Source: Muribaculaceae bacterium Zag1 (GTDB lineage Bacteria > Bacteroidota > Bacteroidia > Bacteroidales > Muribaculaceae). From it: a stretch of DNA of 50,367 nucleotides. The stretch lies in assembly GCA_002633115.1 (NCBI GenBank), contig NWBJ01000111.1:1-50367 (forward strand), written 5' to 3'. The translations under genes and the position numbers were made by a program. Below are positions 39,779-50,367 of this stretch, piece by piece. Numbering within the stretch: position 1 is the stretch's first letter; each line of letters opens with the position of its first letter. The notes beneath the pieces were generated by a model. The model saw only the letters and a list, made by a program, of their open reading frames with translations, was not told the origin of the DNA and did not search any database.

Positions 39779-41332
39779 ATGGCTCAGCATCGCCAATACC
39801 CCATAGGAATACAGACCTTCTCTGAAATCATAGAGGGAGGGTATGTGTATGTCGACAAAACGGAGAACCTGTATAATCTCGTCAAATATGGATCGAAATA
39901 TACATTCCTAAGTCGACCGCGCAGATTCGGCAAGAGCCTTATGGCCAGTACTCTCAAGGCTTATTTTGAGGGCCGTAAGGAATTATTCAAAGGGTTAGCC
40001 ATCGAAAAATTAGAGAAGAACTGGATCCAGCATCCAGTGATATTGTTGAGTCTTGCTGGTATCAAGACTGACAAAGAAGAAACCCTAAGAGAATATCTGC
40101 ATTCTCGTCTCGACCGCCTTTACAGAGAATTTGGGTACCAATGCAATGCCAAAGGCTTAGGAGTAAGATTCGAGAACCTTATTCACCACTGCTATGAATC
40201 CACAGGAGAAAAAGTGGTAGTCATAATTGATGAGTATGACAAACCAGTGCTCAATGTTGTGCATGATGATTATCAGCGAGATGTCATGCGTGGCGTAATG
40301 AGTGAGCTCTACGCTCCGCTTAAGGATTGCGACCCAGTGTTGCGGTTTGTTTTCATTACTGGCATCACCAAGTTCTCGCAAATGAGTATCTTCAGTGAGC
40401 TCAACAATCTGGATAATATCAGCCTCTTTGACCAATATGCGTCAATTTGTGGCATTACCCTTGAGGAGATGATGGCGCAGATGTACACAGATATCCAAGA
40501 ATTGGCTGCTGAGCAATCCTTGACTGATGAAGAAACCCTCAAGAGACTGCGGTTTGAGTATGATGGCTATGGATTCAGCGAACACTCGCCGGAGATTTTC
40601 AATCCCTATAGTCTAATCTGTTGCTTTGATAAGAAGAAATTTGATGCTTTCTGGTTCGCAAGCGCTACGCCTTCCTACCTCATCAAAATGCTCAAGAAAT
40701 TCAAAGTAAAGCCCTCTAACATAGGAAGATGCTACGCTACGGCAGCGCAGTTTGATACCCCCACAGAAAGCATGACCAATATTGTGCCCCTGCTTTACCA
40801 AAGTGGTTATCTCACCATCAAGGGCTATGACCCCATATTGAATCGCTACATCCTCGACATCCCCAACCACGAGGTGCGCATTAGCCTCTTTGGTTCCCTC
40901 CTCCCCAACTATATCCAGGATACTTTAGCCACTGAGAGTGCTCTGGCAGAAATGGTTCTAAGCATCTACCAAGGAGATATAAGGAAAGGACTTGACGGCC
41001 TAAGAACCTTCTTTAAAGAAATCCCTTACTGCCGAGATACCAAATATGAAGGTCATTGGCAACAGATGCTGTATGTAGTATTCTCATTGCTTGGAGCATG
41101 GGCGGATGTGGAAGTCCATACACGAGATGGGAGAGTTGACCTAGCCATGATTCTGGCTAATAAACTCTATCTAATAGAAATTAAGATAGATGGCACACCA
41201 GAGGAGGCCATGACCCAAATCGACCAAAAGAAGTATTCAGAGCGCTTTCAACGCACCGACCTACCCATCATCAAAATTGGAATCAATTTTAATACTTCCA
41301 ATCAACAAATGGACTATCTGATTAAGAAATAA
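39779..41332 (+). CDS. AAA-ATPase-like / PD-(D/E)XK nuclease-like protein
   Basis: The 517-residue protein has the PF09820-type AAA domain: YVDKTENLYNLV, a Walker A variant SRPRRFGKS (residues 45-53) and Walker B VVVIIDEYDKPV (Asp151, Glu152). The C-terminal part is a PDDEXK_9 domain with ADVEVHTRDGRVDLAMI and LYLIEIKIDG giving the D...ExK core. Such genes are present in many copies in Bacteroidales genomes and are thought to be mobile; their role is unclear. Here it has its own promoter, a hairpin after the stop and a palindrome on each side. GC is lower than in the housekeeping genes. Confidence 0.9.
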   Translation: MAQHRQYPIGIQTFSEIIEGGYVYVDKTENLYNLVKYGSKYTFLSRPRRFGKSLMASTLKAYFEGRKELFKGLAIEKLEKNWIQHPVILLSLAGIKTDKEETLREYLHSRLDRLYREFGYQCNAKGLGVRFENLIHHCYESTGEKVVVIIDEYDKPVLNVVHDDYQRDVMRGVMSELYAPLKDCDPVLRFVFITGITKFSQMSIFSELNNLDNISLFDQYASICGITLEEMMAQMYTDIQELAAEQSLTDEETLKRLRFEYDGYGFSEHSPEIFNPYSLICCFDKKKFDAFWFASATPSYLIKMLKKFKVKPSNIGRCYATAAQFDTPTESMTNIVPLLYQSGYLTIKGYDPILNRYILDIPNHEVRISLFGSLLPNYIQDTLATESALAEMVLSIYQGDIRKGLDGLRTFFKEIPYCRDTKYEGHWQQMLYVVFSLLGAWADVEVHTRDGRVDLAMILANKLYLIEIKIDGTPEEAMTQIDQKKYSERFQRTDLPIIKIGINFNTSNQQMDYLIKK

Positions 41333-43510: not shown

Positions 43511-43558
43511 ATTTTGTTGGATGAAAGAATAAAATCCACTAAATTTGCACTCAGAAGA
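43511..43558 (+). promoter_or_regulatory. Repeated promoter segment, copy B
   Basis: TTG (43517-43519), 20-nt spacer and TAAATTTG (43540-43547). 45 of 48 positions equal copy A at 39710-39757. It drives the mazG-like gene. Confidence 0.7.
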
Positions 43559-43592
43559 CAAAAGATGGTTTGAAAGAGTAATCGGAAATCTT

Positions 43593-43919
43593 ATGACTCT
43601 TAACGAATACCAACAGGCAGCTCTTGCCACAGCATGCTACCCCAAGGATATGAGCATCCTATATCCAGTGCTTGGCTTGTCAGGCGAGACTGGCGAGGTG
43701 GCCGATAAAATAAAAAAGGTGTATCGCGACCACAATGGTGAATTCTCAGATGAGCAGCGCCGCGCCATCGCCATGGAGCTTGGCGATGTGATGTGGTATT
43801 GTGCCTCTCTCGCCCATGACCTTGGATTCACCCTCGATAACATCGCCCAAATGAACATCTCCAAACTCGCCTCCCGCCTCCAACGCGGCGCCATCTCCGG
43901 CAATGGCGACAACAGATAA
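43593..43919 (+). CDS. MazG-like nucleotide pyrophosphohydrolase
   Basis: The 108-residue all-alpha protein has the MazG metal-binding pattern: GLSGETGEVADKIKK (ExxE near residues 31-34) and AMELGDVMWY (ExxD near 65-68). It likely hydrolyses (d)NTPs or damaged nucleotides. The ATG at 43593 (MTLNEYQQAALAT) is chosen because the frame further upstream starts within the promoter box. It lies at the left edge of the low-GC accessory block. Confidence 0.9.
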   Translation: MTLNEYQQAALATACYPKDMSILYPVLGLSGETGEVADKIKKVYRDHNGEFSDEQRRAIAMELGDVMWYCASLAHDLGFTLDNIAQMNISKLASRLQRGAISGNGDNR

Positions 43920-43937
43920 AAAATCCCCTATAATATT

Positions 43938-44151
43938 ATGGCCACGATAGATTGTAAATACTGTTTTCTGGATGAACTTCCTGAGTACTGGGAAGGAATT
44001 TGGGACAAAGACGATTTTGTGCCTCACAGAACAGTTGATCCAGACCAAAAAAGCGATACACAACAAGAGTACCCTCTACCACTCCCAACAAGATTTCCTC
44101 ACCAAACGCACAGCCTGCATAGAGGCATGGGCTAAAGAAAATTATGCGTAA
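43938..44151 (+). pseudogene. Small hypothetical gene with an apparent A6 frameshift
   Basis: The frame from ATG 43938 reads MATIDCKYCFLDELPEYWEG... to a run of six A at 44051-44056 region (DPDQK), after which it becomes low-sense and stops at 44135. Dropping one A continues as AIHNKSTLYHSQQDFLTKRT...AWAKENYA to TAA at 44149-44151, giving a coherent 70-residue protein. The N-terminal CKYC pair may bind metal. Family not recognised. It sits 18 bp after mazG and is probably cotranscribed. Confidence 0.45.
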
Positions 44152-44212
44152 ATGTCCGCTTTTGTCAAATCAAGGAAAAATTAGAAACCTAATTTAGATG
44201 AAATTTTAGAGA

Positions 44213-44248
44213 TTTAGTTGTCGGAGAGAATAAAATTCACTAAATTCG
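44213..44248 (+). promoter_or_regulatory. Repeated promoter segment, copy C
   Basis: TTG (44218-44220), 20-nt spacer and TAAATTCG (44241-44248). The stretch ATAAAATTCACTAAATTCG is shared exactly with copy A. It precedes the first DUF262 gene by 25 nt. Confidence 0.65.
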
Positions 44249-44273
44249 TGCCCATAAACCAAACTATTACAAT

Positions 44274-46167
44274 ATGAATATAGAAGAAAAGTCTATAGGT
44301 GAGATAAAGGGAAACTTTAAAATTGAAGCCTATCAAAGAGGTTATCGATGGACATCTCAAGAAGTCAAAAGGCTCCTGGATGACATCATGGAGTTTGGGG
44401 GAGAAAGATACTGTCTTCAACCAATAGTAGTAAAACCAACCGAAACACACTATGAATTGATTGATGGCCAGCAGAGGCTAACTACCCTGTATCTGATAAA
44501 TCAATATCTCCATCATATATCTTGTATGCGTCCACCTTCATACACAATGGAATATACCACAAGGATTCATGATGAGAAGCATATTGGTAGCCAAGAATTA
44601 TTAGAAAATATCAACAAAGTTGATATTGATATTCCCCCCCACATACATTGATGAATTATTCATAAAGCAAGCATATCGTACAATTAAAGATTACTTCCGT
44701 AACCCAGACACTGGAGAAGGCGATTGGGATAAGGGAGCGGAGTTTGCCAATAAATTAAAATCTCATGTGTCAGTTATTTGGTACGAAGTTGATGATGAAA
44801 ATCCAACAGAGATATTTACACGGCTTAATATTGGTAAGATAAGTTTGACCAATGCTGAACTTGTCAAGGCGTTGTTTCTTAGCCGTGGACAAAAGGATAA
44901 GAATGGTAGCTACGCCAAGAATCAATCTGGTTTAGATGCCAAACGTCAACATGAGATTGCCTTACTTTGGGATCAAATGGAAAAAGGGCTTCGGGATGAG
45001 AAGTTCTGGGCGTTTATCACCAATGAAAAGCCATCCCTCTATCCAACGCGCATGGAGCTCCTATTTGATCTCATTGAAAACAAGGATGAACAAAACTCTG
45101 AAAACAGTAAATACTTTACCTTCTTTCGTTTTTACGAGCGTTTTAAGGACCGTAAGAATAAATACTCCACTTGGGAAGAAACGGTACGAGACTATCAGCA
45201 ATTACAAGAATGGTATAAGGATTTCAATCTCTACCACATGATAGGATACCTCGTAACATGTGGTTGGAAAATCAGCCAACTCTTAGATTTGGCAAAGGGT
45301 AAAGGTGAGGGGCAAAATGGTAAAGCTCCTCTGAAATCAGAATTTAAAGACATTGTGGTGTCGAAGATACGTGAATCTATGGCCTTTACGACCAAAGAAA
45401 ATGGTCGTACCATTGAACTCAACTATGAAGATTTAACTTACGAAACTCACTACGAAAAAATTAAGCAATTACTTCTGCTATTCAATGTTGAGACCATCAG
45501 GCAAAAAGGAGATTCAGGCAACCGTTTCCCATTCGTCAGATATAAGAATGAAGGATGGTCGTTAGAACACATCCATGCCCAGAATTCAGAATCCTTGAAA
45601 ACAAATCAAGAATGGAAAGATTGGCTTTTATCTCACCAAAGCGCACTTAAAACGCTCCAAAAAAGCTTTCCTCAATTATCTCAGGCTATCGAAAGCGTTT
45701 TATCAGAAGAAGAACCGGTCTTATCCATAAAGACACTCTTGGCTCGCATAGACTCGCCTACATATCATGGCTCTATACGTGAAGATTTCAAAATCGTTTC
45801 TGAAAAAGTAATCCGATTGCTCTCGGATGATACTGATGGAGAAGGGATTTCGCAGATGCATTCTTTATCCAATATGGCTTTACTCTCGGGACCCTGCAAC
45901 TCTGCTCTGAGGAATGCTACATTTGACGTGAAGAGATTTCGAATAATTGAGATGGATCGGCATGGAGAATATATACCTCAATGCACCCGTAATGTCTTCC
46001 TCAAATATTATTCTGATTCAGATACTAAAATTCATTTCTGGTCTCATAGCGATCGTGAATCCTACATACAAGCCATCAATGATGTTTTGTTTAGCAGAAA
46101 AGATATCCAAGGTAATGAGAAAACATTAAACCTATTAACACAGCGAATTAATTATGGCAGACAATAA
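44274..46167 (+). pseudogene. DUF262-DUF1524 (GmrSD/BrxU-like) protein, interrupted at a C7 run
   Basis: The first frame (44274-44651) encodes the DUF262 start: IEAYQRGYRW (near 17-26) and IDGQQRLTTLYL (Asp64 to Arg68), the nucleotide-hydrolysing ParB-like core. At seven C residues (44634-44640) it shifts into a stop. Removing one C joins it to the frame ending at 46167 and yields an uninterrupted protein of about 630 residues. The rest contains IFTRLNIGKISLTNAELVKA, and a DUF1524 HNH-like motif LEHIHAQNSE with SNMALLSGPCNSALRN downstream. This architecture is that of type IV restriction enzymes such as GmrSD and BrxU. The break may be a phase-variable state, a true mutation or a read error. 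GC is low. Confidence 0.8.
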
Positions 46168-48427
46168 TCAAAAGACAAAATTTGAAGAGCATACCTTCAA
46201 GACATTCCTCAATAAGTACCATGTCGTAATCCCTATGGTACAACGTGACTATGCTCAAGGAAGAACCGATGATAATACGATACGAATCCGATCAAGATTT
46301 CTGGATGCTATTTCCAATCATCTGTCTACAGAAAGCACACAGACTATGAAGATGGATTTCGTTTATGGTGAGGTAGATTCTGTGTGGAGTAAGACTGAAG
46401 TTAATAAGTTGGAGGCATTGATTGTAACACCTCTGGATGGTCAACAACGTCTTACTACCTTATATCTTTTGCATTGGTATGCCGCAAAAATCGCTAAGGT
46501 AGAAAGTCAAGAATATCATTTCTTATATCATTTCACGTATGATGTTAGGCCCAGTTCCAGAGATTTCTGCAACAAATTTGTGGAATATATCCCTGATATG
46601 CAGTTATCTTTGAAGGAACAAATTCCCAATCAGCCATGGTTTCAGGCAGAGTGGAAGAATGATGCCACAGTTATGGGCATGTTAGAAATGTTGGACTCCA
46701 TACAATTGAAGTTTGATAAGAGACTAGACTTATGGAAAGTTTTAACAGAAGAAAATCGCATAGTTTTCTTCTTCCTCCCTCTATCCGAGAATGGACAGTC
46801 AGACGAACTTTATATAAAAATGAATTCAAGAGGTAAAGAGTTGACCTCTTTTGAGCATTTCAAAGCTGAGTTTGAGAGCCTCTACGATCACATCTCCAGT
46901 TCTGAAAAATTTGTGATAGAGCACAAATTTGATGTAGAATGGACGGATATGCTGTTTCCTTATCGTAACCCCCGTAGCAATACCATTGATTCTGAGTGGC
47001 TGCGTCTTTTCAAGTTTATCAGCCATGCCATTTGTTATAAGCAAGGGTTAGAGCGCATCAATGATGAGTTGAATCTCATTGAGCTATTGTATGCATTGCC
47101 TGATTCCAAGCATCCCTATCGTAATCCTAACGCTAAACAAAATCAAGAATTCTTAGTACAAGCACTAGATAGTTGGGCTAACCTTGAATCCATAGATAGT
47201 TTCTTTAAGGAGTTCTTATGTATGGATCCCTATGTGGAGAATTATTCCACATCTAAGGTCTGTACCTATAAGAAAGATTGGAAAGGGACTGATTGTCAAA
47301 ACTATCTTTATGCTTGTTGCAAATATTACTCAAATTCTACCTACTATTTTTCTTTAGGGGATTTTGTATTTCTCTATGGCATAACCTTCTATCTTATCAA
47401 CAAAGACAAAATTTCTGAAAGGGATTTCAGAAAACGCCTTAGGGTTCTCCGAAACTTAATAATGGCATCAAGTAATGAGTTGCGCAATGATAGCGATGTC
47501 ATTCAAGATATCCTTGCCCAAACAGAATCAATAATTCTCTCGGGGAATATCTCTCGAGAAGGGAGAAAATATGGCTTTAATGAAGCTCAAGCAACTGAAG
47601 AAAGTCTAAAACAAGCTCAGAATTTTTCTCTTGAGTTGGTCGGGCTGTGCAATCATTTGGAAGACCATCCTCTTCTCTATGGGTATATCTCCAGTGTTGG
47701 TATAAACAATTTGAATTTAGAAGGAGCATTCTATGAAGTGTTCTCAAACAAACATAATCATTTTGATGTACACAGGGCTCTCTTATCCATAGGAGATTAT
47801 TGCCGACGCGACCGAGAGAGGCATTATATGGGGAATCATAATGAGCGCACTTGGGAAGAACTTTTTCATGCCAGTAGACGTGGAGGGTTTAACACTCATA
47901 CTTCACCAACTTTGATCGCTTTACTTAAATCAATCAAAGCAGGGAGAACAATTGAAGACATCATCTCAAGTTTCCTTCAGGAATGTGAACACGCCCATAC
48001 TTATCCATGGAGATATTATTTCGTCAAATATCCAGTAATGCTTTATGGTCAGAATGGCAACTTAGACCTGAAAAATGGTTGTCAATATGAATGGATCACC
48101 CTTAACAGAATCCAGTATAATGGTAAGCATTGGAGCTCTTTCGCTTTAGCTATAAAAGATGAATTCATACATAGAGCAACCCTATTAGGCATAACTCTTC
48201 CTAAGTCTTCAATTATGGTTGAAGATTATGACGTATACCTAAAGCTCCCGTTCTGTAATGGTTGGTTAGAATGTATCGAAACAGGTTTTGTCTTACATCA
48301 AGGCGATAAGGTGACATCTTGGCCAACTATACAAGAAGTTGGTCAAACTGACTCTTTTGATAGAGTGGATTTTTGCGTAAAAAAACTGCTACAACTTTAC
48401 CATGATTCTCGACCGTCAGACCAATAA
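46154..48427 (+). CDS. DUF262-domain protein (second, long)
   Basis: The 757-residue protein starts with a DUF262 domain: VIPMVQRDYAQGR (residues 25-37) and PLDGQQRLTTLYLLHWY (Asp95, Gln97-Gln98-Arg99). IKMNSRGKELTSFEHFKAEF (near 219-238) is the second conserved DUF262 block. I see no clear HNH or DUF1524 motif in the remaining 500 residues, so the nuclease activity, if any, would come from the partner gene upstream. It overlaps that gene by 14 bp and the deiminase-like gene by 26 bp, indicating coupled translation. Defence is the usual role of DUF262 pairs; that is inference here. Confidence 0.85.
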   Translation: MADNNQKTKFEEHTFKTFLNKYHVVIPMVQRDYAQGRTDDNTIRIRSRFLDAISNHLSTESTQTMKMDFVYGEVDSVWSKTEVNKLEALIVTPLDGQQRLTTLYLLHWYAAKIAKVESQEYHFLYHFTYDVRPSSRDFCNKFVEYIPDMQLSLKEQIPNQPWFQAEWKNDATVMGMLEMLDSIQLKFDKRLDLWKVLTEENRIVFFFLPLSENGQSDELYIKMNSRGKELTSFEHFKAEFESLYDHISSSEKFVIEHKFDVEWTDMLFPYRNPRSNTIDSEWLRLFKFISHAICYKQGLERINDELNLIELLYALPDSKHPYRNPNAKQNQEFLVQALDSWANLESIDSFFKEFLCMDPYVENYSTSKVCTYKKDWKGTDCQNYLYACCKYYSNSTYYFSLGDFVFLYGITFYLINKDKISERDFRKRLRVLRNLIMASSNELRNDSDVIQDILAQTESIILSGNISREGRKYGFNEAQATEESLKQAQNFSLELVGLCNHLEDHPLLYGYISSVGINNLNLEGAFYEVFSNKHNHFDVHRALLSIGDYCRRDRERHYMGNHNERTWEELFHASRRGGFNTHTSPTLIALLKSIKAGRTIEDIISSFLQECEHAHTYPWRYYFVKYPVMLYGQNGNLDLKNGCQYEWITLNRIQYNGKHWSSFALAIKDEFIHRATLLGITLPKSSIMVEDYDVYLKLPFCNGWLECIETGFVLHQGDKVTSWPTIQEVGQTDSFDRVDFCVKKLLQLYHDSRPSDQ

Positions 48428-49250
48428 AGTTTTCGTTTCTGAGAAAACCTTAGAGTATTTCCCTACAGAGACCAATCATATTTTTGAGTGCTTGGCAAAT
48501 CAAGGCGTGTTGGTAAAATATTTGCCATTTACCAAAGAAGGATGGTGTAGGGACTATATGCCAATCCAGGTGTCAAAGACTAAATTTGTACAGTATAGAT
48601 ATTGGCCAGACTATATGCGGAATATAGTGGACATGCCTTACATTACTGACCCTTCGGAAACTCTCTCATGGCTCGGCATAGAGACAGTCAAAACGACCCT
48701 CATAATAGACGGAGGAAATGTAATCAAGTGTCCTGATTGTGTGATTATGGTTGATAAGATTTTCAAAGAAAATCCCGATTGGACCAGAACACAAGTAATA
48801 GAAGAATTAGAATGCCTTTTTGAATGTGAGATACTCTTCCTTCCCTGGGATAGAGCGGAGAAATACGGGCATGCCGATGGAATTGTGAGATACATCAGAG
48901 ATAATAAAGTCTTAATGACTAATTACTCCCAAATTGATGCTCGATTCGCTGACAAATTCCGTAAAGCTCTATCAAAAAAATTTGAAGTAGTAGAACTCCA
49001 TTATGATGTAGAGAGACCTCATAAATATAATTGGTCTTACATCAACTTTCTCCAAATGCGGGATCTAATAGCTATTCCTAGCTTTAACGAGCCTGAGGAC
49101 CAACAAGCTTTAGCTCAAATAAAGGATTGTTTCAAAGATTATCGGTGCAAAGTGATAACCATCCCCATGAAAGAAATTGTAAAAGCAGGAGGCGCTTTAA
49201 ACTGTATAAGTTGGACAATAACCTCTTGGGTTCTCCCAAATTACTTATAG
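48402..49250 (+). CDS. Agmatine deiminase / peptidyl-arginine deiminase-like protein
   Basis: The 282-residue protein keeps the guanidino-modifying core: WCRDYMP (Arg50, Asp51), IDGGNV (Asp103 to Asn106), YGHADGIVRY (His157, Asp159) and GGALNCISW with the likely nucleophile Cys268. In agmatine deiminase the Cys is normally preceded by His (IHC); here it is Asn. It is shorter than the usual 340-370 residues, missing the first blade. Known members hydrolyse agmatine or peptidyl-arginine to the citrulline-type product plus ammonia. Its start lies inside the second DUF262 gene, so it is part of that operon, an unexpected partner. Substrate unknown. Confidence 0.82.
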   Translation: MILDRQTNKVFVSEKTLEYFPTETNHIFECLANQGVLVKYLPFTKEGWCRDYMPIQVSKTKFVQYRYWPDYMRNIVDMPYITDPSETLSWLGIETVKTTLIIDGGNVIKCPDCVIMVDKIFKENPDWTRTQVIEELECLFECEILFLPWDRAEKYGHADGIVRYIRDNKVLMTNYSQIDARFADKFRKALSKKFEVVELHYDVERPHKYNWSYINFLQMRDLIAIPSFNEPEDQQALAQIKDCFKDYRCKVITIPMKEIVKAGGALNCISWTITSWVLPNYL

Positions 49251-49283
49251 ATGAATTTGGTTTATGATTTTTCTGGTATAGCC

Positions 49284-49314
49284 TTTGAATTTTGTATTTT
49301 TAGTTGTAGATTTG
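49284..49314 (+). promoter_or_regulatory. Promoter for the last gene
   Basis: TTTG (49284-49287), 19-nt spacer, TAGATTTG (49307-49314). The ATG is 28 nt downstream. This indicates the last gene is transcribed independently of the DUF262 operon. Confidence 0.55.
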
Positions 49315-49342
49315 CAGTCTAACCATTAAATCCAATACTCTT

Positions 49343-50236
49343 ATGATTGATGTAAAGTTTGTGAACAATAGAATATATTTTGATTTGGCCGCTGTTATCA
49401 AAGAAGCAGAGGGGCAACTCAAAATTGAAGATGCGCTGGTGATTGCAGCTACGCCTTGCGTATTGGTGGATTATGCCTCCACGCCAGATTCTGAATTGAA
49501 GTATATCTCACGAGCTATGCGACGCTTCTTCAAACGCAATCCAAGATACACTAAATTCACCAAAGCAGCCGTTATGGAGGGGCTCAGACAAGAATGGCTA
49601 CCAAATCTTGAAGAAGAAGACAAGAAAGACCTTCTTACCGACCTGCCTATTACACCAGCCGTGGATGTCGATGGATACGTAATATATTCGCCGACATGGG
49701 TAGAAAATCTTAATGCCAAGCCCAATCCAGATCAGAATCAATATGGTAAACAAGAATTCACAAGGGTGAATCTTTCGGGGACCGAAAGAAAGCTTAGGCC
49801 TGGATCAGCTACGGCAAAGAAATACTGCTCATATCAGGATGAGGAAGGATTCTGGAGGGTGGATATGGAAATCACTGCTGATGAGTGGTACGAAATAATC
49901 AAGGATGCTTCGCCTCTGGTGCATGAGTATCTGAAATGCTATATACAGGTGCCAGATGGCTATGCCAGTACTGCGCAGGTAGAAAAGATGTTTGACATCC
50001 CTGCTGGCTGCATCAACGCTCGTAATACTGCCCTCGGCAAGCGTGCCCAGCGTATGCTCGACATCGAGGTGTATGACACTGAAGACAATCGGCGATTCTG
50101 GTCCACTCCCATGCTTAAAGGCCGAACCGAGGAAGGGCTATTCCGCTGGGTAATGCGCCCACAACTGGTTGAGGCAGCCAAGCGCCTCGCCAAAGAAGAA
50201 AATTGGGAACTCCCTCGCAGAATAGACCTCGAATGA
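49343..50236 (+). CDS. Unrecognised 297-residue protein
   Basis: I do not recognise the family. Visible are an N-terminal block (about 1-120) with MRRFFKRNPRYTKFTKAAVM, a linker with YVIYSPTWVENLNAKPN, and a C-terminal block (about 190-297) with ECYIQVPDGY-like sequence, DNRRFWSTPMLKGRTEEGLF and WVMRPQLVEAAKRL. The last stretch faintly recalls the domain that accompanies some HNH or McrA-type restriction proteins (GLFEW.LRPELVEA), but this is weak. No signal peptide or membrane helix. It has its own promoter and is less AT-rich than the DUF262 genes. Confidence 0.7.
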   Translation: MIDVKFVNNRIYFDLAAVIKEAEGQLKIEDALVIAATPCVLVDYASTPDSELKYISRAMRRFFKRNPRYTKFTKAAVMEGLRQEWLPNLEEEDKKDLLTDLPITPAVDVDGYVIYSPTWVENLNAKPNPDQNQYGKQEFTRVNLSGTERKLRPGSATAKKYCSYQDEEGFWRVDMEITADEWYEIIKDASPLVHEYLKCYIQVPDGYASTAQVEKMFDIPAGCINARNTALGKRAQRMLDIEVYDTEDNRRFWSTPMLKGRTEEGLFRWVMRPQLVEAAKRLAKEENWELPRRIDLE

Positions 50237-50325
50237 TCCCAACAAGCAGATTGAAGGGGATTTTTGGGTAATAGGAAGTTTAGGAATAACGACAATATTA
50301 ATTTGTTTAAATATTTTAGCATTGT

Positions 50326-50367
50326 ATACCTTAACTTCCAAACAAAATTGTCGTAAAGTTAAGGTAT
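50326..50367. repeat. Dispersed repeat at the right edge (cut by the window)
   Basis: GTCGTAAAGTTAAGGTAT (50350-50367) repeats 41341-41358 exactly and in the same orientation, also preceded by a similar A-rich stretch. ATACCTTAACTT (50326-50337) is the inverse of the last 12 bases, so a hairpin is possible. Confidence 0.7.

Follow-up and report, generated by a model that had tools for sequence, protein, structure and literature searches.

A short agmatine-deiminase-fold enzyme whose relatives stand beside unrelated DNA-excising and DNA-cutting enzymes suggests an undescribed helper in phage defence

The 50,367-nucleotide stretch analysed here (the window) is contig NWBJ01000111.1 of Muribaculaceae bacterium Zag1, C111 in its 4.46 Mb genome. 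It carries three overlapping forward-strand genes that encode two DUF262 proteins and a short enzyme of the agmatine-deiminase fold (pentein). Open reading frames (ORFs) were called mechanically. The deiminase gene (48402..49250, +) encodes 282 residues, matches PAD_porph (PF04371) with 84.4 bits (gathering cut-off 25) and contains D51, D103, H157, D159 and C268, the first four of which we take to be catalytic together with the cysteine. The gene before it, DUF262B (46154..48427, +), encodes 757 residues with a TgvA-like architecture; PF03235 is its sole Pfam match (73.6 bits, cut-off 33.2, residues 16–240), and no nuclease domain is recognized in it. The first gene, DUF262A, was described in an earlier note on this DNA as one DUF262–DUF1524 gene; both domains are present, but they are spread over two overlapping ORFs. 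The N-terminal piece (44274..44651, +), whose frame is interrupted at its end, holds a GmrSD_N domain with the DGQQR motif (PF03235, 79.8 bits, residues 10–92), and its best PADLOC model is HEC-06 (E = 1.9e-14). The remainder (44620..46167, +) has a TgvB-like architecture with a C-terminal DUF1524 (GmrSD_C) region of the His-Me/HNH nuclease type (PF07510, 25.3 bits, cut-off 23). Its translation shows, by eye, EHIHAQ and an N-containing motif, and its PF03235 score of 28 bits is alone below the cut-off of 33.2. The overlaps of 14 bp (46154–46167) and 26 bp (48402–48427) are as the note had given them, and the genes are indeed AT-rich, with a G+C content per kb of 0.37–0.41 at 44–50 kb against 0.48–0.58 in the first 25 kb.

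The interruption of DUF262A lies near 44.63 kb. In a 93% identical relative, L004, the same gene is uninterrupted, with 651 codons to the contig edge and about 630 from its ATG. Because DUF262A is interrupted, the window copy is probably impaired, as judged from its sequence. Homology to L004 (blastn, 93.1% over 6041 bp) gives the extent of the cassette as 44263..50301 and breaks off abruptly. Since this homology spans it, the next gene (49343..50236, +), encoding a 297-residue protein, is part of the same cassette. It also stands downstream in L003 and L004 (95% identity), the promoter-like site at 49284–49314 is its own, and searches of Pfam, PADLOC, NCBIfam and PDB gave no match for its product. 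L003 and L004 are 93% identical to the window and 99.9% identical to each other, and L003 holds only the end of DUF262A. Both keep the same unit, including the 297-residue gene; the cassette is therefore a discrete unit that occurs in more than one surrounding. The two are contigs of metagenome-assembled genomes labelled Tannerellaceae and Rikenellaceae, and because they are nearly identical, one family label may be a binning error. L004 begins and ends in a 55-bp inverted repeat (L004:1-55 and L004:6087-6141; the repeat is at least 55 bp long), of which no 15-base piece occurs anywhere in the window. The unit in L004 may therefore have moved or may invert.

The deiminase belongs to a short subfamily in which M53, P54 and W271 are invariant. 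All five catalytic positions are present in 48 of 49 aligned members, and C268 occupies the alignment column in which entry 6b2w, titled C315S agmatine deiminase, has Ser. The proposal that the third gene encodes a catalytically plausible enzyme thus stands, its catalytic set being intact by sequence. The subfamily differs from the arginine- and agmatine-metabolizing members of its predicted fold. The window enzyme has 52 residues fewer than the 334-residue stretch of AguA from the same genome, and reads RDYMP, DGGN and GHxDG where AguA/PAD_porph read RDFGP, EGGS and SHID. It carries a Trp three residues past the Cys and, unlike AguA/PAD_porph, is linked to DNA enzymes. It scores 47.5 bits against the AguA equivalog TIGR03380 (cut-off 381.8), and the same genome has a separate, canonical AguA-like gene (343-residue frame, 368 bits). 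In an even draw of 393 genomes of the window's order, on which the genome counts below are based, the subfamily occurs at 49 places; in the window's own family it is found in 19 of 119 genomes. Recurrent fusions or neighbours include Sel1 repeats, DUF6508 and other small domains. One copy (L045:9930-10769) has E, C, Y, G and S at the five catalytic positions and lies next to an intact one; it may be an inactive paralogue with a regulatory role. A branch of about 425 residues (L063:9034-10311 and L065:9336-10622; similar-sized proteins in L250–L252 and L254–L256), in which L063 and L065 show by eye an N-terminal hydrophobic, membrane-like segment, is perhaps a different use of the enzyme.

The most frequent neighbour of the deiminase is a gene for an AAG/MPG-like DNA glycosylase, which lies within 3 kb of 26 of the 49 places. 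The association holds in both directions. The AAG-like profile, which found 27 loci, matches 41 places in the 393 genomes, 26 of them within 3 kb of a short deiminase, and among strong matches (E<1e-20) the fraction is 25 of 32. By genome, 46 carry the deiminase, 33 a strong AAG-like match and 26 both, with a hypergeometric probability of 5e-22 that ignores relatedness. The 15 AAG-like places not beside a deiminase include three near contig ends (G221, G371, G011) and one that adjoins a divergent deiminase (G023 C46). Within the window's family, the 18 carriers other than Zag1 divide evenly, nine with an AAG-like gene in the stretch read and nine with none; the former include L253, where the two are fused, and L260–L262, where the gene is on the opposite strand. 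The AAG-like and deiminase domains share one chain in three loci (L050, L086, L253). A same-strand upstream gene overlaps the deiminase by 1–56 bp in 19 of 47 loci and is AAG-like in ten of these 19; overlaps of 4 bp between glycosylase and deiminase are seen, for example, in L041, L042, L062, L068, L071 and L201, and no such pair occurs in the window. Six more pairs come from IMG/VR and a phylum sample (L177, L178, L179, L187, L199, L200), and these are partly dependent, L177 being a near-copy of L035 and L178 of L179. Beside AAG–deiminase loci, the products of L048:7992-8975 and L086:5541-6956 look ADP-ribosylglycohydrolase-like by eye, an assignment not confirmed by a library.

The assignment of these partners to the AAG/MPG family relies on profile comparison. 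An hhalign comparison with seven canonical MPGs gives a probability of 90.6 and E = 1.3e-6 over 143 columns, where 12 decoys give E values of 0.12–0.8; subgroup A3 compares with a probability of 82.3 and E = 1e-5. E42 and Y44 align with the E-x-E-x-Y motif of MPG and are present in 26 of 26 AAG-like proteins; we take them to be the catalytic Glu and the base-stacking Tyr. The PF02245 cut-off of 27 bits was not reached by any of six proteins searched (L046, L041, L035, L039, L050, L074), of which only L041 matched at all (14.3 bits, E = 0.026).

Other DNA-acting partners take the adjacent position elsewhere. Among the 49 places, the neighbour is HNH-like in four (L040, L054, L064, L067), deoxyinosine-glycosylase-like in three (L053, L073, L076) and a DUF262 pair in the window. 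Outside the sample, the partner in L201 passes the DNA-deoxyinosine glycosylase model TIGR04274 (94.5 bits, cut-off 80) and overlaps the deiminase gene by 4 bp, while L076, L053 and L073 score below that cut-off (41.4, 37 and 23.9 bits). Two Flammeovirga plasmids, also beyond the sample, have an HNH-like gene downstream of the deiminase (L083, L084), and L181 shows the order hsdR–deiminase–hsdM. The nuclease activity of the HNH-like partners is uncertain, because their Pfam HNH matches are below the cut-off and by eye they have R where the catalytic His usually stands. A protein upstream of the deiminase in L049 resembles a PD-(D/E)XK nuclease by eye; it obtained no library confirmation and a weak LmuA match (E = 0.009), and was not counted. 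A PADLOC scan of 108 neighbour proteins lists PDC-S01 with six members and AriA and pVip with two each among the best 25 of 179 families, and single members of Gabija GajA and GajB, AbiEii and AriAB among the matches listed; the scan had no control set and no enrichment is claimed.

We placed analyst-assigned partner labels on a maximum-likelihood tree of 60 deiminase rows, on which L201 and L181 are labelled 'other'. The HNH label requires five changes, the deoxyinosine glycosylase label three and the DUF262 label one. The window and L004 fall in a set of 11 rows (starred, 98/98) of which eight are AAG-paired and one is without an assigned partner; L187 and L067 are long branches. Partners thus appear, as far as the tree goes, to have been exchanged repeatedly around a constant deiminase.

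The DUF262 pair has a history of its own. A relative of DUF262B occurs in 30 of the 393 genomes, that of Zag1 included. In all five loci read with their surroundings (L203–L207), DUF262A stands beside DUF262B; four matched nearly full-length at 39–41% identity and L207 over part only. No deiminase is present in these five stretches, L205 stopping soon after DUF262B, and a second DUF262 pair in Zag1, on C10, likewise has none in the 12 kb read. The order DUF262A–DUF262B–deiminase is seen only in the window and L003/L004. The earlier note had proposed the trio as one system, to be recognized by its recurrence and doubtful if confined to this strain. The pair does recur; the pair with the deiminase comes close to being so confined, while the deiminase is widespread beside other DNA-acting enzymes. 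As a conserved system the trio thus finds no support in the genomes sampled, where all five DUF262 loci read with their surroundings show the pair and no deiminase. Because its architecture matches TgvAB and it recurs without the deiminase, the sequences indicate that the DUF262 pair is of a known kind and that the deiminase is the addition. The remark that a deiminase is not a known part of DUF262 systems agrees with our searches, in which no described place for it was found.

Three known systems bear on this locus. In the available part of the TgvAB report, both proteins are needed and the system restricts phages with hypermodified genomes (PMC11411939). Like the window pair, TgvAB as described there is encoded by neighbouring genes for two DUF262 proteins, of which one ends in a DUF1524 nuclease domain; unlike it, the window has the DUF1524-bearing gene first, an overlapping deiminase after the pair and an interrupted first frame. 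The likeness is one of domain architecture only, as the pair was set beside TgvA and TgvB without direct sequence comparison: DUF262 is in both proteins and DUF1524 in one, as in GmrSD/TgvAB, but the genes are not all intact. According to a preprint, Brig3–BapA is an operon of two genes, the product of one unmasking the base that the product of the other excises; Brig3 is a glycosylase weakly homologous to uracil DNA glycosylases, and BapA an ASCH-type glucosyl hydrolase acting on glucosyl-5hmC (PMC13160076). The AAG–deiminase pairs of the relatives resemble it in being small operons of a DNA glycosylase and a second enzyme. They differ in that the second enzyme has the deiminase fold and the glycosylase is mostly AAG-like or of the deoxyinosine type, and the window has no glycosylase. 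The third comparison is with restriction glycosylases, which we take to be of the R.PabI kind. These excise a base of the unmethylated recognition site and share with the module proposed below the use of base excision as restriction; the main text of the source mentions no deiminase (PMC10273834). In the literature searched, mostly outside subscription papers and preprints, there is no description of a deiminase–glycosylase or deiminase–DUF262 pairing, and the word 'deiminase' is absent from the main texts searched for it.

We infer that these modules serve in defence, and tentatively propose that this defence is modular and directed at DNA, with the deiminase as its constant half: it would prepare or unmask the DNA on which the other half, an exchangeable enzyme that attacks DNA, then acts. 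We put this whole statement somewhat short of even, and hold the gene association itself much more firmly. The enzyme's target would be a purine in the invading DNA, whose amidine or guanidine group it would hydrolyse, acting on a modified phage base or converting adenine or guanine to deoxyinosine or xanthosine, and the partner would then excise the altered base or cut the DNA. An AAG/MPG-like glycosylase would most often fill the second role, and elsewhere a deoxyinosine glycosylase, an HNH-like protein or a type I restriction–modification (R-M) operon; in the window lineage, the TgvAB-like pair would have taken the glycosylase's place. These partners differ in fold, the glycosylases alone coming from two unrelated families, and all act on DNA or are predicted to do so. 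AAG excises deaminated and alkylated purines, and the name of TIGR04274 refers to deoxyinosine; both types of glycosylase therefore suggest purines. The deiminase fold hydrolyses amidine and guanidine groups, a reaction that would convert adenine or guanine to hypoxanthine or xanthine, or alter a modified purine. The purine-type partners, this chemistry and the Brig3–BapA precedent are why we favour a base-processing role. In a more specific form, which we regard as unlikely when taken together with its proposed targets, the deiminase would act directly on purine bases in DNA or the nucleotide pool and the paired glycosylase would excise the product, a 'deiminate and excise' restriction that would give this enzyme fold, to our knowledge, its first substrate among nucleic acids. 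Its candidate targets would be adenine, guanine, 2-aminoadenine or a formamidino-modified base; with a DUF262, HNH-like or type I partner, the same module would act by cutting. Archaeosine-type bases were demoted to one candidate among others, given that the glycosidic bonds of 7-deazapurines are hard to cleave.

Several observations weigh against the modular reading. No nucleobase-acting deiminase with this fold is known to us. No deiminase lies within 3 kb of seven of the 32 strong AAG-like genes, and the Zag1 genome yields no AAG-like match. Fifteen of the 49 deiminase places lack both an AAG-like gene within 3 kb and an adjacent gene of another partner class; the contig ends at some of them, and in one, L049, an HNH-like gene stands 2.2 kb upstream. 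The type I R-M partner is a single locus, L181, and the stretches read around the branch of about 425 residues contain no glycosylase partner. When subgroup A4 is compared with MPG by itself, the match is weak (probability 28.2, E = 6e-4), and the structure model of an AAG-like protein is poor (pLDDT 50.1). The AAG-like proteins have a median charge of −0.7 (n=26) against +7.0 for canonical MPGs (n=7) and are without their basic RRTxRT stretch; DNA binding is therefore not assured. The deiminases are themselves acidic (median charge −7.4). On the tree, 22 changes are needed for all labels together, where shuffles average 25.2 and eight of 200 give a value as low, so partners are hardly clustered. 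This scatter fits free exchange, and it also fits a loose association.

The same facts can be read in other ways. In one of these, which we consider rather unlikely, the partner would detect invading DNA and the deiminase would be a toxic or metabolic effector that drains arginine or agmatine or citrullinates a phage or host protein. The partners already resemble DNA-destroying effectors (glycosylases, GmrSD-like proteins, HsdR), leaving a second effector unneeded, and both the wide distance of the subfamily from the AguA equivalog and the canonical AguA-like gene in the same genome speak against it. A deiminase found in such different systems, even between hsdR and hsdM in L181, and behind a DUF262 pair that elsewhere stands without it, could instead be a defence or anti-anti-defence gene in its own right, one that inserts into defence operons and works independently of its neighbour, for example by deiminating arginines of phage inhibitors of restriction. 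Embedded genes of this sort are known, since TgvAB itself, in the part of the report available, lies inside a type I R-M cluster (PMC11411939), and the near-shuffled partner labels agree with such a passenger. Yet the tie to AAG-like genes is close, runs in both directions (25 of 32) and extends to fusion in three loci, which is more than would be expected of a random passenger, and we find this explanation distinctly improbable.

The position of the deiminase gene, often 3′ of the partner and overlapping it or a few bases on, recalls some control genes, and would suit an enzyme that restrains its partner, for example by modifying the partner's arginines, or that shields host DNA. Against such regulation or self-protection stand at least five unrelated partner kinds, among which no shared target site is therefore expected. 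Moreover, TgvAB of Vibrio cholerae, in the portion of the report accessible, defends Escherichia coli as two genes alone (PMC11411939). We regard this role as the least probable of those considered, and very unlikely in itself. The modular reading, in which the deiminase prepares DNA for its partner, remains the one that we favour.

The dedicated promoter that the earlier note assigned to the trio is unsupported. The Bacteroidetes-type promoter pattern TTTG-N17-23-TAnnTTTG has no match with up to one mismatch at 43900–44280, while across the window it has nine exact matches against 0.67 expected; sigma-70-like sites at 43800–50367 are at chance level (20 found, 19.6 expected). One exact Bacteroidetes-type match (43513–43547) belongs to a gene directly upstream of the cassette, 43545–43919, which encodes a MazG-type pyrophosphohydrolase (PF03819, 40.8 bits). 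About 3 kb upstream of the cassette, 39779–41332 encodes an AAA-ATPase_like and PDDEXK_9 protein (223.7 and 57.8 bits), which may have other roles in conflict or defence.

A phage origin of the deiminase was considered and rejected after a single-protein scan of viral contigs gave no match; an alignment-based scan of viral contigs found 17 deiminase loci. Among viral contigs, subgroup A3 revealed no AAG-like relative, and A4 only one contig already in the locus set. The divergent viral loci L183, L184 and L189 have a phosphatidylserine-decarboxylase-like neighbour, by Pfam in L183 and by eye in the others. L183 and L184 have a DDAH-like gene too, and none of the three is used for the argument. 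In L183:4382-6876, on a phage-type contig, DDAH-like, phosphatidylserine-decarboxylase-like and divergent short deiminase genes stand in a row, two of them of the deiminase fold.

If the modular reading is true, several DNA-targeting systems within one bacterial order would have adopted a fold of arginine and agmatine metabolism as a common component, and base-excision immunity (Brig1–3, BapA) would be extended to purine-type glycosylases. It would also hint that phages use a still unrecognized class of modified bases. For genomes of this kind, the annotation 'agmatine deiminase family protein' may not signify polyamine metabolism.

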